Source: Chryseobacterium sp.
GTDB lineage: Bacteria > Bacteroidota > Bacteroidia > Flavobacteriales > Weeksellaceae
Length of the DNA stretch: 64,000 bases
Reading direction: 5' to 3'
Assembly (NCBI RefSeq): GCF_008831505.1
Contig: NZ_CP044507.1
Span: 1,798,001-1,862,000 of the forward strand
In this document: positions 326 to 6,500 of the stretch, piece after piece
Numbering within the stretch: position 1 is the stretch's first letter
How the letters are laid out: each line of letters opens with the position of its first letter
Made by a program: the position numbers and the translations under genes
Notes under the pieces: generated by a model
The model's database searches: none
Told to the model about the DNA's origin: nothing
What the model saw: the letters and a program-made list of their open reading frames with translations, nothing else

Positions 326-3300
326 TTACATCTTCTCCATCTTAAAACTCATGCTTTCAATAACCTTCAGAATAGCCTCAACGGTATCCATGGAGGTCAG
401 ACACGGCACACCGTTCTCCACCGAGGTGCGGCGGATCTGGAAGCCGTCGCGCTCCGACTGCTTGCCTTTAGTCATGGTGTTTACAATGTACTGAACCTTG
501 CCGGTCTGGATCAGGTCAATAAGGTTAATCTCAGGATTTTCCTCGATCTTGTAACCGATCTTGGCACGGACGCCGCGCTCTTCAAAGTAGTTGGCTGTTC
601 CTTCGGTGGCCCAGATCTTAAAGCCGATTTCCTGGAACCGTCGGGCCACTTCGCAGGCTTCTTCTTTATGCTTATCTGCAACGGTGAAAAGAATCGCGCC
701 GTGCAGCGGCATCTTGCGGCCGGAACCGATAAGGCCTTTGTAAAGAGCTTTTTCCAGCGTGGTGTCCTTGCCCATCACTTCACCAGTGGATTTCATCTCA
801 GGTCCCAGGGAAATGTCCACCTTGGTCAGTTTGGAGAAGGAGAATACCGGAACTTTTACATAAACACCGTCCTTCACCGGTGCCAGACCGGATTCAAATC
901 CTAAATCCTTCAGTTTCTGACCCAGGATCACCTTGGTAGCCAGATTGGCCATTGGGATTTCTGTAATCTTTGAAAGGAAAGGTACCGTTCTACTCGACCT
1001 TGGGTTTACCTCAATCACGAACACTTCGCCATCGGCCAGAACAAACTGGATATTCATCAGACCTATGACGTTAAGACCGCGCGCCAGTCTTTCGGTATAA
1101 TCCACCAGCGTGTCAATCTGCTGCTCGGTGATATTCTGCGGCGGGTACACCGCGATGGAGTCACCGGAGTGAACACCAGCCCTCTCAATATGTTCCATAA
1201 TCCCCGGAATAACTACCGTTTCACCATCGGAAATGGCATCTACTTCAACTTCCTTACCGGTAAGGTAACGGTCGATGAGAATCGGATGCTCAGAGTTTTC
1301 TTTAACGGCGTTGGTCATGTAATAGTCCAGTTCCTTTTCATCGTATACGATTTCCATGGCGCGGCCACCCAGTACATAACTTGGTCTTACCAAAACCGGG
1401 AAACCTATTTCGTTGGCAATCACGAGTGCTTCCTCTTTTGTGAAGCAGGTCTTACCCATAGGTTGCGGAATGCCGAGTTCCTGCAGGGCCGCTTCAAATT
1501 TGTTACGGTTTTCGGCGCGGTCCAGGTCTTCAAGCGTAGTGCCGAGAATCTGAACACCGTGTGCCGCTAACTTATCGGCCAGGTTGATGGCGGTCTGTCC
1601 GCCAAACTGTACCACAACGCCTTCAGGTTTTTCCAGTTCGATGATGTTCATCACATCTTCTTCGGTAAGCGGTTCAAAGTAAAGTTTGTCGCTAATGGAG
1701 AAATCTGTGGATACGGTTTCCGGATTATTATTGATAATGATGGCCTCGTAACCCATTTCCTTGATTGCCCAAACGGAATGCACGGTCGCGTAATCAAACT
1801 CCACACCCTGCCCGATACGGATAGGACCAGAACCCAGGACAATTACTTTCTTCCGGTCGGAAGGAATGCTTTCATTCTCTTCTTCATAGGTACCGTAAAA
1901 GTAAGGGGTGGCACTTTCAAACTCAGCGGCACAGGTGTCCACCATTTTGTATACCGGCATTACGGCGTTGTCGCGTCTGAAATCGAAGACAGTTTTCTGG
2001 TGGGATTCCCAAAGGTGCGCAATGTGTAGGTCCGAGAAGCCTGATTTCTTGGCTTCAAGCAGCACATCTTTATTAAATTTATTCTCTGTGATGGTTTTTT
2101 CGAAGTCAATGAGTTTCTTGATCTTCCAGATAAAGAACTTGTCGATCTTGCTCCACTCCACAATCTGTTCCCAGTCGTAACCTCTTCTTAAGGCATCACC
2201 GATGATGAAAAGACGCTCGTCATCACAAACGCGGATCCTTCTTTCAATTTCCTCGTCAGTCAGCGCTTCTGCCTGCTTGGATTTGAGGCCAATATGTCTC
2301 AGACCTGTTTCCAGTGAACGGATGGCTTTCTGCAGGGATTCCTCAAAGTTCCTGCCGATGGCCATTACCTCACCCGTGGCTTTCATTTGAGTGGAGAGAC
2401 GGCGGTCGGCCGTTTCAAATTTATCGAACGGAAATCTTGGGAACTTGGTTACTACATAATCTAAAGCCGGCTCGAAACAAGCGTAGGTTTTTCCTGTAAC
2501 GGGATTCATGATCTCATCCAGGGTAAGTCCTACGGCAATCTTGGCTGCGATCTTGGCAATCGGATAACCGGTAGCCTTACTCGCCAGGGCTGATGAACGC
2601 GACACACGAGGGTTCACCTCAATGATATAATAGTCGAATGAATGCGGATCCAAAGCCAGCTGTACGTTACAGCCGCCTTCAATGCCCAGCGCACGGATGA
2701 TCTTCAGGGAGGAATTCCGGAGCATCTGGTACTCACGGTCCGAAAGCGTCTGCGAAGGTGCTACAACAATGGAATCTCCGGTGTGAACACCTACCGGATC
2801 TATGTTCTCCATATTACAGACCACGATGGCGTTATCATTTTTGTCGCGCATCACTTCGTATTCAATTTCCTTGAAACCCGCGATAGATTTTTCAATCAGA
2901 CACTGGGTTACAGGTGAATATTTAAGTCCAAAACCGGCGATTTCCTTAAGTTCATCGTCATTGTGTGCTATACCACCACCGGTTCCGCCCATGGTAAAGG
3001 CAGGCCTCACGATCACAGGATAACCGATATTATGCGCAAATTCCAGAGCACCGCGCACAGTATTTACAATGTCTGATTCCGGCACCGGCTCGTTCAGTTC
3101 TCGCATAAGCTCGCGGAAAAGGTCACGGTCTTCGGCCTGATTGATTGCTGAAAGTTTGGTACCCAGGACTTCCACTTTACATTCTTCCAGGATGCCGGAT
3201 TTCTCCAGTTCCACCGCCATGTTCAGACCAGTCTGACCGCCCAGTGTAGGCAGCAGCGCGTCCGGTCTTTCCTTTCGGATAATGTGGCTCACAAAAGGCA

Positions 3301-3508
3301 GTGAGATAGGCTCAATATAGACTTTGTCGGCAATTTCAACATCCGTCATAATGGTTGCGGGGTTGGAATTGATCAGGATGACTTTATAGCCTTCTTCCCT
3401 GAGGGCCAGACAGGCCTGGGTTCCGGCATAATCAAACTCGGCCGCCTGCCCTATTATTATGGGGCCGGAGCCGATAACGAGGATCGTTTTAATATCGTTT
3501 CTTTTCAT
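326..3508 (-). CDS. carB: Carbamoyl-phosphate synthase large subunit
   Basis: Makes carbamoyl phosphate from bicarbonate, ATP and ammonia delivered by CarA; first step of pyrimidine and arginine synthesis in the cytoplasm. The 1060 residues (E. coli 1073) show the expected internal duplication: [17 protein letters not shown] near residue 13 and [16 protein letters not shown] near residue 560, each opening an ATP-grasp half (GGTGGGIA in the first, GGRAMEIV in the second). Paired metal-binding EVNPR motifs close each active site. The last ~130 residues form the MGS-like allosteric domain that binds UMP/ornithine in characterised enzymes. It is the last gene of a minus-strand pyr operon, separated from carA by an inserted S23 ORF. 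Start is the ATG at 3508; no Shine-Dalgarno is visible, as is normal in this phylum. Confidence 0.97.
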
Positions 3509-3571: not shown

Positions 3572-3984
3572 AAGAACCAAGAGCCAAGATTCAAGACTTT
3601 AATTGAAGGTTATTTTTGAAGGAATAAATCATTTTTTGAATTGCTGATAAATCTTCCAAAAGTTCATTTGCTGTTTCTACGTTGAGTAATTCGAGTTCTT
3701 TGGCCAAAATGATTTGGGTCTGGAGCTCAAAGGCAGAGCCTAATGAAATTGAGAGGAAATGATTGAACTCCCTGTTGCTGTTTCTACCCGAGCCTTCCGC
3801 AATATTTGAAGGGATTGAGATGGCAGCACGTTTCATTTGAGAAATCAAACCAAATCTTTCATCTGATGAAATATTCTGGGAGATTAAATAAATCTTTTTT
3901 GCAAAGCCAATAGACTTTTGCCAAAAAACCAATTTCTCAAAATTATGCATAATCTTGATTCCTGGTTCTTGGCTCTTGGTTCTT
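3572..3984 (-). mobile_element. S23 ORF unit bounded by perfect 18-bp inverted repeats
   Basis: AAGAACCAAGAGCCAAGA at 3572-3589 is repeated exactly in inverse orientation at 3967-3984. Both arms carry a further TCAAGA/TCTTGA on the inner side (3591-3596 and 3953-3958). The S23 gene lies between the arms and its stop codon falls inside the left arm, while the right arm encodes the last codons of carA. More TCAGAT-type repeats continue outside to 3516. The arrangement looks like a small non-autonomous insertion cassette; no transposase is present and no target duplication was identified. Calling it mobile is inference. Confidence 0.5.
3591..3950 (-). CDS. S23/IVP-type four-helix bundle protein
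   Basis: A 119-residue all-helical protein of the family first described inside 23S rRNA intervening sequences (TIGR02436-like). Diagnostic text is the early FEKLVFWQKSIGF segment and the central SIPSNIAEGSGR motif followed by a FLSISLGSA helix. Function is not established for the family; members are thought to form pentamers. I chose the ATG at 3950 over an upstream non-ATG start because residues before it are encoded by the flanking repeat and do not belong to the family. That ATG overlaps the carA stop region by eight bases, so it can be translated by coupling to carA. It sits between inverted repeats in the carA-carB gap, where most bacteria have nothing. Confidence 0.85.
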   Translation of the reverse strand: MHNFEKLVFWQKSIGFAKKIYLISQNISSDERFGLISQMKRAAISIPSNIAEGSGRNSNREFNHFLSISLGSAFELQTQIILAKELELLNVETANELLEDLSAIQKMIYSFKNNLQLKS

Positions 3985-5049
3985 AAAGACATGCATCAAC
4001 TCAAGGAACTCATCAAACAGATAATTGGCATCTTCCGGGCCGGGGCTGGCTTCGGGGTGGTACTGTACCGAGAAGCAGGGGTGGATCTTGTGTTTCAAAC
4101 CTTCGTTGGTTCTGTCATTCAGGGCGATGTGGGTTTCTTCCAAATCAGTATTTTTCAGGGATTCCTGATCTACAGCGTAGCCGTGGTTCTGGGAGGTAAT
4201 GGCCACTTTGTTTTTCTGAAGGTCCAGTACAGGGTGGTTTCCGCCGCGGTGACCGAATTTCAGTTTGAAGGTTTTGGCACCACAGGCCAGCGCAATAAGC
4301 TGATGACCCAGACAAATCCCGAAAATCGGCACTTTACCCAGCAGTCCGTTGATCAGTTCTGAAGCACCTTTCACATCTTCCGGGTCGCCGGGACCGTTGG
4401 AAAGCATGACCCCGTCCGGGTTCATAAGCAGGATTTCTTCGGCAGTTACGTCCTGGGACACTACGGTTACATCGCAGTCACGCTGCGTAAGTTCGCGCAG
4501 GATGCCCAACTTTGAACCGAAGTCTACCAGTACCACTTTCAATCCGCGGCCGGGACTTGCGTAGGCGGTCTTGGTAGAAACGCTGGCCACCTGATCTGTT
4601 GGGAAAGTGGTGTTTTTAAGGCTTTCAATTACCGTCTGGTCATCGGCATCAGCGCTCACAATCTTACCTTTAAGCACCCCTTTGCTTCTTAGGATGCGGG
4701 TAAGACGTCGCGTATCGATACCACTGATTCCCGACAGGTTTTTCTTAGCAAAAAGCTCGTCCAGGGTAAGCTGGTTACGGAAGTTGGACGGAAGGTCACA
4801 AAGTTCCTTTACGATGAGACCTTTGATGGCTGGCTCTATACTTTCGTAGTCGTCGCGGTTGATACCGTAGTTTCCGATAAGCGGATAGGTCATACATACG
4901 ATCTGGCCGCAGTAGGACGGATCGGAAATCAGTTCCTGATAGCCGGTCATTCCGGTGTTGAAGACTACCTCGCCGGCCGTTTCCAGGTCAGCCCCGAAAC
5001 CGGTTCCGTGAAACACCTCCCCTGATTCTAATATCAATTTCTTTTTCAT
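3943..5049 (-). CDS. carA: Carbamoyl-phosphate synthase small (glutaminase) subunit
   Basis: Hydrolyses glutamine and channels ammonia to CarB. The N-terminal small-subunit domain includes MTGYQE and SDPSYCGQI. The class I amidotransferase domain starts near residue 172 and has nucleophile Cys246 in GICLGHQ with His331 and Glu333 in QYHPEASPG. Length is 368 residues. The last 13 residues (from Lys356, KNQEPRTRNQDYA) are read from the inverted repeat that bounds the neighbouring S23 ORF, so the C-terminus looks replaced or extended by an insertion. The catalytic core is intact and the gene should be functional. It is cotranscribed with pyrB upstream and carB downstream. Confidence 0.97.
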   Translation of the reverse strand: MKKKLILESGEVFHGTGFGADLETAGEVVFNTGMTGYQELISDPSYCGQIVCMTYPLIGNYGINRDDYESIEPAIKGLIVKELCDLPSNFRNQLTLDELFAKKNLSGISGIDTRRLTRILRSKGVLKGKIVSADADDQTVIESLKNTTFPTDQVASVSTKTAYASPGRGLKVVLVDFGSKLGILRELTQRDCDVTVVSQDVTAEEILLMNPDGVMLSNGPGDPEDVKGASELINGLLGKVPIFGICLGHQLIALACGAKTFKLKFGHRGGNHPVLDLQKNKVAITSQNHGYAVDQESLKNTDLEETHIALNDRTNEGLKHKIHPCFSVQYHPEASPGPEDANYLFDEFLELMHVFKNQEPRTRNQDYA

Positions 5050-5064
5050 TTTTATTTAGATGTG

Positions 5065-5186
5065 AGATTTCAGACTTCAGATTTCAGACTGAAAAACTCT
5101 TATTACTGCTTATTTTAAACCTTCATATCAGACTGCTGACATCCGACATCTCAAAACTGACATCTGAAATCTGAGATCTGAAATCT
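5065..5186. repeat. Palindromic TCAGATTTCAGA repeat between pyrB and carA
   Basis: A 24-base arm at 5065-5088 (AGATTTCAGACTTCAGATTT plus CAGA) matches the inverse of 5163-5186 at 22 of 24 positions. Each arm is itself a tandem of AGATTTCAGA units. The loop of about 75 bases has no coding potential. The same units reappear near 3516-3550. In the operon mRNA it would form a long hairpin between pyrB and carA. Confidence 0.7.
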
Positions 5187-5191
5187 GATTT

Positions 5192-6082
5192 CTATTTAAA
5201 CTTAAACCCTTTCTCTTCCAACGCTTCCTTCAGGATGGCCATGCGCGCATACACGCCGTTTTCCATTTGTTTGAAAATCCGCGAACGCTCACTTTCCACA
5301 AGTTCATCGGCGATTTCAACTCCGCGGTTGATAGGCGCAGGATGCATGATGATGGCACCCTCGTTCATGGTTTTTACACGTTCAGTGGTAAGGCCGAATT
5401 TCCTGTGGTAGGATTCCAGGGAGATCTTCATCTTCTCGCCGTGTCTTTCGTGCTGTATGCGCAGCAGCATCAGGACATCCACTTCTTTTACAAGATCATC
5501 TATAGACAGGTAGGTTCCGTTGATGATGGTTCCCTCGTCAAACCACTTCTCGGGTCCGGAGAAATAAACTTTGGCACCGAGTTTACGCAGCGCCTCAGCA
5601 TTTGAGTTGGCCACGCGGCTGTGTTTTACATCGCCCACGATACCTACTTTCAGACCTTTGAACTTTCCGAACTCCTGGTGGATGGTCATCAGGTCCAGGA
5701 TGGTTTGCGTAGGATGATTCCCGCTTCCGTCGCCACCGTTTATAACCGTCAGCTTCACATTTTTCAGCTCTTCGTAATACTTGTCTTTCCCATGGCGGAT
5801 CACAGCCAGGTTAACACCCAGACTTTCCAAAGTTCGTACCGTATCGTACAGGGATTCGCCTTTGTTCACGGAACTGGAGGTTACATCAAAAGGTACCACA
5901 TGCAGTCCCAGCCTGCGCTGCGCGATATCAAAACTCGTTTTTGTACGGGTACTGTCTTCAAAAAATAGATTGGAGACATAAATCTCATCCACCGCCTTCA
6001 GTGTTTTGCCGGCAGCAAATTCTTCCGCGGTTTTCAGTAAAGAATTGATCTTTTCTACCGTTAAGTCTGTGGTTGTAAGCAT
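5192..6082 (-). CDS. pyrB: Aspartate carbamoyltransferase catalytic chain
   Basis: Condenses carbamoyl phosphate with aspartate to carbamoyl-aspartate, the committed step of pyrimidine synthesis. Motifs include the carbamoyl-phosphate loop STRTKTS (residues 44-50), [17 protein letters not shown], and the aspartate-binding segment [12 protein letters not shown]. The length of 296 residues is normal for the catalytic chain; no regulatory pyrI gene is adjacent. I place the start at the ATG at 6082; the longer frame from a TTG at 6103 would run into the terminator stem of the leader. First gene of the operon, so the attenuator in front would control carA and carB as well. Confidence 0.96.
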
Positions 6083-6101: not shown

Positions 6102-6130
6102 AAAAAAAAACGAAGCCCAAAGGACTTCGT
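6102..6130 (-). terminator. Intrinsic terminator in the pyrB leader (attenuator)
   Basis: On the minus strand ACGAAGTCC-TTT-GGGCTTCGT forms a 9-bp stem (one T-G pair) followed at once by nine T. It lies 20 bases before the pyrB ATG and downstream of the only recognisable promoter. The upstream neighbour acs is divergent, so this hairpin cannot belong to a preceding gene. Inference: a transcription attenuator of the pyr operon. Confidence 0.8.
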
Positions 6131-6204
6131 TAAATAAAATAAATATGGTAGTTACCGGCATCGCTGCCTTTGTGTAAATCGTCTAATGGAAATATTCTTT
6201 TCAT
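6130..6204 (-). CDS. Putative 24-codon pyr leader peptide
   Basis: An ATG at 6204 opens a frame that begins MKRIF and ends YHIYFI, with its TAA at 6132-6130 abutting the terminator stem. The final codons are very U-rich (AUU UAU UUU AUU UAA). This is the layout of E. coli pyrL, where a ribosome following a UTP-starved, paused polymerase covers the terminator. The ATG is only about 7 bases past the -7 box, so the message would be leaderless or nearly so. Translation is inferred, not shown. Confidence 0.5.
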
Positions 6205-6210
6205 TAGCTG

Positions 6211-6240
6211 CAAAGATAGGAATATTTTTAGGAACTGCAA
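6211..6240 (-). promoter_or_regulatory. pyrB operon promoter
   Basis: A perfect Bacteroidota -7 box TATCTTTG (6218-6211) with TTG at 6240-6238 and a 19-base spacer, reading toward pyrB. Transcription should start near 6205, giving a leader of about 120 bases before pyrB. Confidence 0.75.
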
Positions 6241-6381
6241 ATTCATCAGGTAAAATGACCAATAATCGATTCGGCGGTTCAAACAGAATTTTCTGTGCCT
6301 GTATTAAATCCTTAAAAATGTAACCTGACTGTAATAAAGTTGAGAAGAAAACCGGCTCACTTTGATATTTATACTAAATTT

Positions 6382-6500
6382 AGGCTCCTGAATTTTCTAA
6401 GCATGCCACACCGTTACCAGCCCTGATTGCAGCGGAAATCCCGCAGTCCCGTCTGAAGGACGGGACGAGGAATTGCAGCGGAAAGCAGGAAAAAGCTCCT
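6382..6500. repeat. Intergenic interspersed repeat with hairpin, upstream of acs
   Basis: The block contains GTCCCGTC-TGAAG-GACGGGAC (6446-6466), two direct copies of ATTGCAGCGGAAA (6426-6438 and 6472-6484) and CTCCT at both ends. From memory, related blocks (CAGCCCTGATTGCAGCGG ... AGCTCC) occur between genes in many flavobacterial genomes. No second copy is in this window, so its repeat status rests on that recollection. Confidence 0.45.

Follow-up and report, generated by a model that had tools for sequence, protein, structure and literature searches.

Introduction

The pyr operons of Bacillus carry an attenuator in front of the pyr genes that needs PyrR and an antiterminator. At the Escherichia coli rph-pyrE locus, the role of the translated ORF is played by the complete rph gene, which ends just before the terminator, with a U-rich stretch in between. 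In the E. coli pyrL leader of pyrBI, a hairpin (GCGUCU-GAAAAA-AGACGC) is followed after 10 nt by UUUUUCUU, then by the terminator and pyrB, and both hairpins fold well. There, low UTP slows the polymerase at U-rich pause sites (PMC7818426), and close ribosome coupling keeps the terminator from forming (PMC5021804). In Flavobacterium psychrophilum, leader-peptide attenuation has been proposed for amino-acid operons (PMC9723704).

We analyzed the region upstream of pyrB in a 64,000-nt stretch of the Chryseobacterium sp. contig NZ_CP044507.1 (hereafter, the window, in whose positions all coordinates are given), together with the corresponding regions of related genomes. A search of the open-licence literature found no report of the leader described here. 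Our results suggest that the leader of pyrB-carA(-carB) is probably a translation-coupled transcription attenuator that works like E. coli PyrL and senses UTP.

The leader and the operon in the window

The following features were identified in the leader and the operon downstream of it.

6238..6241, minus strand: -33 box TTTG, from the sequence, with a 19-nt spacer to the -7 box
6211..6218, minus strand: -7 box TATCTTTG, from the sequence, of the TAnnTTTG type, conserved in relatives
6130..6204, minus strand: leader ORF of 24 codons (ATG at 6204, TAA at 6130), nearly leaderless, its TAA overlapping the terminator base
6157..6168, minus strand: pause-type hairpin GGCA-GCGA-TGCC (GGCAgcgaTGCC) inside the leader ORF, from conservation and folding
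6132..6146, minus strand: U-rich stretch AUAUUUAUUUUAUUU, the proposed UTP-sensitive pause region, from T content in relatives
6102..6131, minus strand: intrinsic terminator (attenuator) with a 10-bp stem and T9, from sequence and folding
5192..6082, minus strand: pyrB, aspartate carbamoyltransferase catalytic subunit (NCBIfam NF002032, 363 bits)
3943..5049, minus strand: carA, carbamoyl-phosphate synthase small chain (Pfam)
326..3508, minus strand: carB, carbamoyl-phosphate synthase large chain (Pfam)

A first-pass annotation of this DNA had described a minus-strand promoter, a 24-codon ORF and a terminator in front of pyrB, and every one of these parts is present. The terminator stem, AACGAAGTCC-TTT-GGGCTTCGTT, occupies 6131-6109 of the minus strand and is followed by the T9 run at 6110-6102, as annotated, although the stem has 10 bp and not 9. 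Likewise, the terminator does lie just before the pyrB ATG at 6082, at a distance of 19 bases from the end of T9, where 20 had been given. Folded alone, it has dG of -12.4 kcal/mol (z -5.0), and it is the top-scoring site of its kind within the first 10 kb of the window.

In flavobacteria, the TAnnTTTG box spans positions -12 to -5 (PMC9723704). Based on this placement, transcription should start near 6206/6205, leaving a 5'UTR of 1-2 nt.

The gene on the other side of the leader, acs (plus strand, from 6527), is divergent, and hence the terminator is part of the pyrB transcript. In the 104 relatives where the neighborhood was examined, carA is found 3' of pyrB on the same strand, while acs rarely adjoins, indicating that pyrB-carA and the leader move together. 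A Flavo-1 RNA (Rfam RF01705, 51.2 bits) lies at 6415-6496 of the plus strand of the window, in the interval separating acs from the divergent pyrB leader. The gap between pyrB and carA (5080-5190, minus strand) carries short degenerate repeats of the type CAGATTTCAGATCTCAGATTTCAGATGTCAG. A gene encoding a 23S rRNA-intervening-sequence protein (PF05635) at 3591-3992 of the minus strand, between carA and carB and overlapping the end of carA, is an insertion in the operon.

Conservation of the layout in Weeksellaceae

We gathered pyrB with its upstream regions from genomes of the family, including Kaistella, Chryseobacterium, Riemerella, and one Weeksellaceae metagenome-assembled genome, and applied one uniform parser for the promoter, ORF and terminator, accepting slightly relaxed -7 boxes. 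The complete layout was found at 154 loci comprising 108 distinct leaders, and these loci include all 28 representatives of the 22 genera; related leaders are not independent, but the peptides of the genus representatives are for the most part different. Occurrence of the same layout at 154 loci excludes chance. The distance from the -7 box to the ATG is 6 nt at 146 of these loci, 5 nt at seven, and 7 nt at one. This fixed spacing makes the ORF essentially leaderless throughout, in agreement with the near-leaderless start proposed in the first-pass annotation.

The position of the stop codon is similarly constrained. At 139 loci, it falls between 2 nt inside the stem and 4 nt before it. In 94 of the 108 distinct leaders, the stop is at the stem base, and in another 12 it is within the terminator or past it; the remaining two stop 8 nt and 13 nt before the stem, which we counted against the PyrL-like reading. 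Thus, 106 of 108 leaders keep frame 0 open as far as the terminator or past it, as compared to only ∼15-16% per leader after shuffling. In frame 0, eight leaders have a stop before the stem, mostly right at its base; the corresponding numbers are 107 for frame 1 and 87 for frame 2. The annotation had named loss of the ORF frame in relatives as an observation that would speak against its reading; the frame proves to be retained, while the peptide drifts.

Two loci of a single genus with the most divergent type of PyrB, L146 and L147, have no recognisable leader, and this was also counted against the PyrL-like reading. At L147, a terminator-like hairpin precedes pyrB.

A covariance model built from the leader yielded a single copy in the genome containing the window, at pyrB, with the score of 106.5 bits. 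Over 198 Bacteroidota genomes, it found no credible copy outside Weeksellaceae. The inspected matches outside the family were ordinary terminators with CGAAG stems and unrelated adjoining genes.

Pause hairpin and U-rich stretch

The leader ORF contains a small GC hairpin absent from the first-pass annotation, which adds to the PyrL-like layout. In the window, it is located 10 nt upstream of the U-rich stretch; its stem has only 4 bp there, which counts against the PyrL-like reading. To assess it in relatives, we required at least 4 bp, at least three G-C pairs, and an end 14-30 nt before the terminator, with codon-shuffled leaders as the control. Such a hairpin is present in 101 of 108 distinct leaders, with 5.0 expected, and in 27 of 29 representatives, with 1.0 expected; the 14-30 nt range was picked after a first look, and the contrast is somewhat inflated by this choice but cannot be explained by it. 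An initial search that did not constrain the position had given weak significance per sequence, and the test at the fixed position was decisive.

The sequences of both the stem and the loop turn over completely among relatives (GGCAGCGATGCC, GGGCGAAAGCGCCC, CGGTTTTCAAACCG, CAACTCACTTTGAGTTG). In the alignment, the proposed structure scores above each of 500 shuffles and every slid version on all measures. Two-sided (compensatory) changes are seen at five of nine terminator pairs and at three of four pause-stem pairs, the latter figure being lowered by MAFFT, which misregisters the Chryseobacterium rows in that alignment.

Over the 12 nt that precede the terminator stem, the T fraction in the 28 representatives reaches 0.7-0.8, and C and G are nearly gone. 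One could argue that this U-rich stretch is a by-product of A+T richness and that the leader responds to growth rate or to the overall activity of translation and not to UTP, any ribosome being able to block the terminator. The anatomy, which requires translation up to the terminator, agrees with such a role. However, the hairpin held across genera at a fixed distance before the U-rich stretch would then lack a role, the rise in T is accompanied by near disappearance of both C and G, and the operon makes the UTP precursor. We therefore regard sensing of general translation as unlikely.

Search for competing RNA structures

RNAalifold run on the leader alignment recovered the terminator only. 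Pairing of an upstream segment with a terminator arm did not improve on that obtained after swapping the arms among species (p = 0.62); hence, neither the swap test nor RNAalifold revealed a conserved antiterminator or a mutually exclusive antiterminator hairpin. In the minimum-energy fold of the window, the U-rich stretch pairs with the start region, but this pairing did not exceed the swapped controls either (p = 0.62). Rfam covariance models yielded nothing near the gathering score in the leader; the near-misses, ncr1241 and the L20 leader, were far under the cut-off.

These results bear on an attenuator of the trp or his type, in which the terminal codons would sense charged tRNAs. The final codons of the ORF are mostly those of tyrosine, isoleucine and phenylalanine, as such a device would need. 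Yet the swap test gave no pairing of an upstream segment with that arm above the controls, the residues vary (IYFI, IYCY, IFIF, KYIF), and these amino acids are unlinked to pyrimidines, making sensing of charged tRNA very improbable.

Control of the terminator thus most likely does not rest on a competing RNA fold but on something else, namely a ribosome on the stop codon. On the assumption that this ribosome covers ∼12 nt, 35 of 37 leaders would have either 7-11 nt of the terminator 5' arm hidden or translation running through the arm.

The leader peptide

Between leaders differing by at most 20%, we counted 187 synonymous and 1315 non-synonymous codon changes. The synonymous fraction, 0.12, compares to 0.20 expected for random changes. 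Therefore, the peptide sequence is neither conserved nor protected, and what persists is translation as far as the terminator. In some leaders, a single-base indel shifts the frame, and the new frame is also open, running through the terminator. Retention of translation without retention of the peptide is what is expected of a PyrL-type leader.

An FPLDDL-like motif that recurs in several genera had made peptide conservation a candidate, which was rejected given the mostly non-synonymous changes. Together with the suitable length of the peptide, this motif is also what could be put forward for a nascent-peptide arrest leader of the TnaC or ErmCL type, with the peptide sensing a ligand. We give this possibility very little weight, as the peptide is unprotected, peptides of different genera are unrelated, and frame shifts are tolerated.

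Absence of PyrR

Matches to the PyrR model (NCBIfam NF003549) above the cut-off were found in 0 of 31 Weeksellaceae genomes and in 9 of 9 genomes selected to represent other families in the order. Outside Weeksellaceae, at least 24 of 36 pyrB loci have a PyrR-sized ORF (∼180-225 aa) that ends at or overlaps pyrB, and all seven such ORFs scanned were PyrR; a leader of the Weeksellaceae type was found at none of the 36 loci. The first-pass annotation had looked for PyrR-type boxes and seen none, which is explained by the family having no PyrR gene. Attenuation at the RNA level by PyrR or a riboswitch, as might be suggested by PyrR being the usual neighbor of pyrB in the phylum, is highly unlikely given the absence of PyrR from the 31 family genomes, of any Rfam match in the leader and of an antiterminator, and the varying loops of the hairpin.

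The simplest reading would be that PyrR was lost and the attenuator gained in the ancestor of most Weeksellaceae. In the lineage of L146 and L147 (PyrB ∼49% identical), both PyrR and a recognisable leader are missing.

Compared to PyrB from the rest of the phylum, its own order included, Weeksellaceae PyrB shows only ∼40-47% identity. It either evolves fast or was acquired from elsewhere around the time of PyrR loss. In 35 of 299 Weeksellaceae genomes, consistently in several genera, there was no PyrB match at E <= 1e-60; these bacteria either are pyrimidine auxotrophs or have a different PyrB.

Proposed mechanism

From this anatomy we infer the start site, UTP-sensitive pausing and ribosome-dependent readthrough, which could operate as follows. 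The transcript would be nearly leaderless, with the ATG at about +2/+3, and a ribosome would load at once. After ∼50 nt, the small hairpin would fold behind the polymerase, which ∼10 nt further on would reach the U-rich stretch. If UTP is low, the polymerase would linger there, and the leading ribosome would catch up, melt the pause hairpin and trail the polymerase. Being at or near the leader stop codon, the ribosome would cover the terminator 5' arm, and transcription would continue into pyrB-carAB. If UTP is ample, the polymerase would be past the U-rich stretch by the time the ribosome gets there, allowing the terminator to fold and end synthesis. The leader peptide itself would have no function. 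The PyrL-like reading of the first-pass annotation is supported by the kept frame, the terminator before pyrB, and the U-rich end.

We know of no demonstration of ribosome-polymerase coupling in this bacterial group, and our search of the open-licence literature found nothing on it. In addition, we counted against the PyrL-like reading that leaderless mRNAs constitute just 5.5% in a related flavobacterium (PMC9723704).

We also lean, with more reserve, towards a broader view, namely that this is an independently evolved, UTP-sensing, ribosome-coupled attenuator in Bacteroidota that replaced PyrR in one family and uses the leaderless start as a timing device. If so, the ribosome begins its race with the polymerase at nucleotide one, and tight coupling of transcription and translation in Bacteroidota is implied. 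As the device can work only if the ribosome and the polymerase move together, it would provide a natural test of such coupling, and this in bacteria that make no use of Shine-Dalgarno sequences. Replacement of a regulatory protein, PyrR, by a protein-free device at the RNA level would also be clearly exemplified. The mechanism predicts control of pyrimidine synthesis across most Weeksellaceae, including Riemerella and many Chryseobacterium species.

Comparison with known systems

The attenuators proposed in Flavobacterium psychrophilum belong to amino-acid operons, and the passage on them names no pyrimidine operon (PMC9723704). The PyrR-regulated pyr operons of Bacillus and other Bacteroidota serve the same pathway, but they need PyrR and an antiterminator, neither of which was found in Weeksellaceae. 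The rph-pyrE locus is similar in having an ORF stop near the terminator base and a U-rich stretch in between; unlike the full gene rph, the Weeksellaceae ORF is a dedicated leader.

The closest likeness is to E. coli pyrL-pyrBI, which shares with the Weeksellaceae locus a translated leader ORF, a pause hairpin, a 10-nt distance, a U-rich stretch, and an intrinsic terminator shortly before pyrB, and controls the same enzyme. The two differ in ORF length, as pyrL has 44 codons and runs through the terminator, whereas the Weeksellaceae ORF has ∼22-24 codons and usually ends at the stem base. They also differ in the start, which follows a Shine-Dalgarno leader in pyrL and lies at about +2/+3 in Weeksellaceae, and in the downstream genes, pyrI in E. 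coli and carA-carB here. Alignment of the peptides with that of E. coli pyrL showed no similarity, a weak test for such short peptides. As far as sequences allow this to be tested, the Weeksellaceae leader appears to be an analogue and not a homologue of enterobacterial pyrL, and the PyrL layout would have evolved convergently in this distant phylum.
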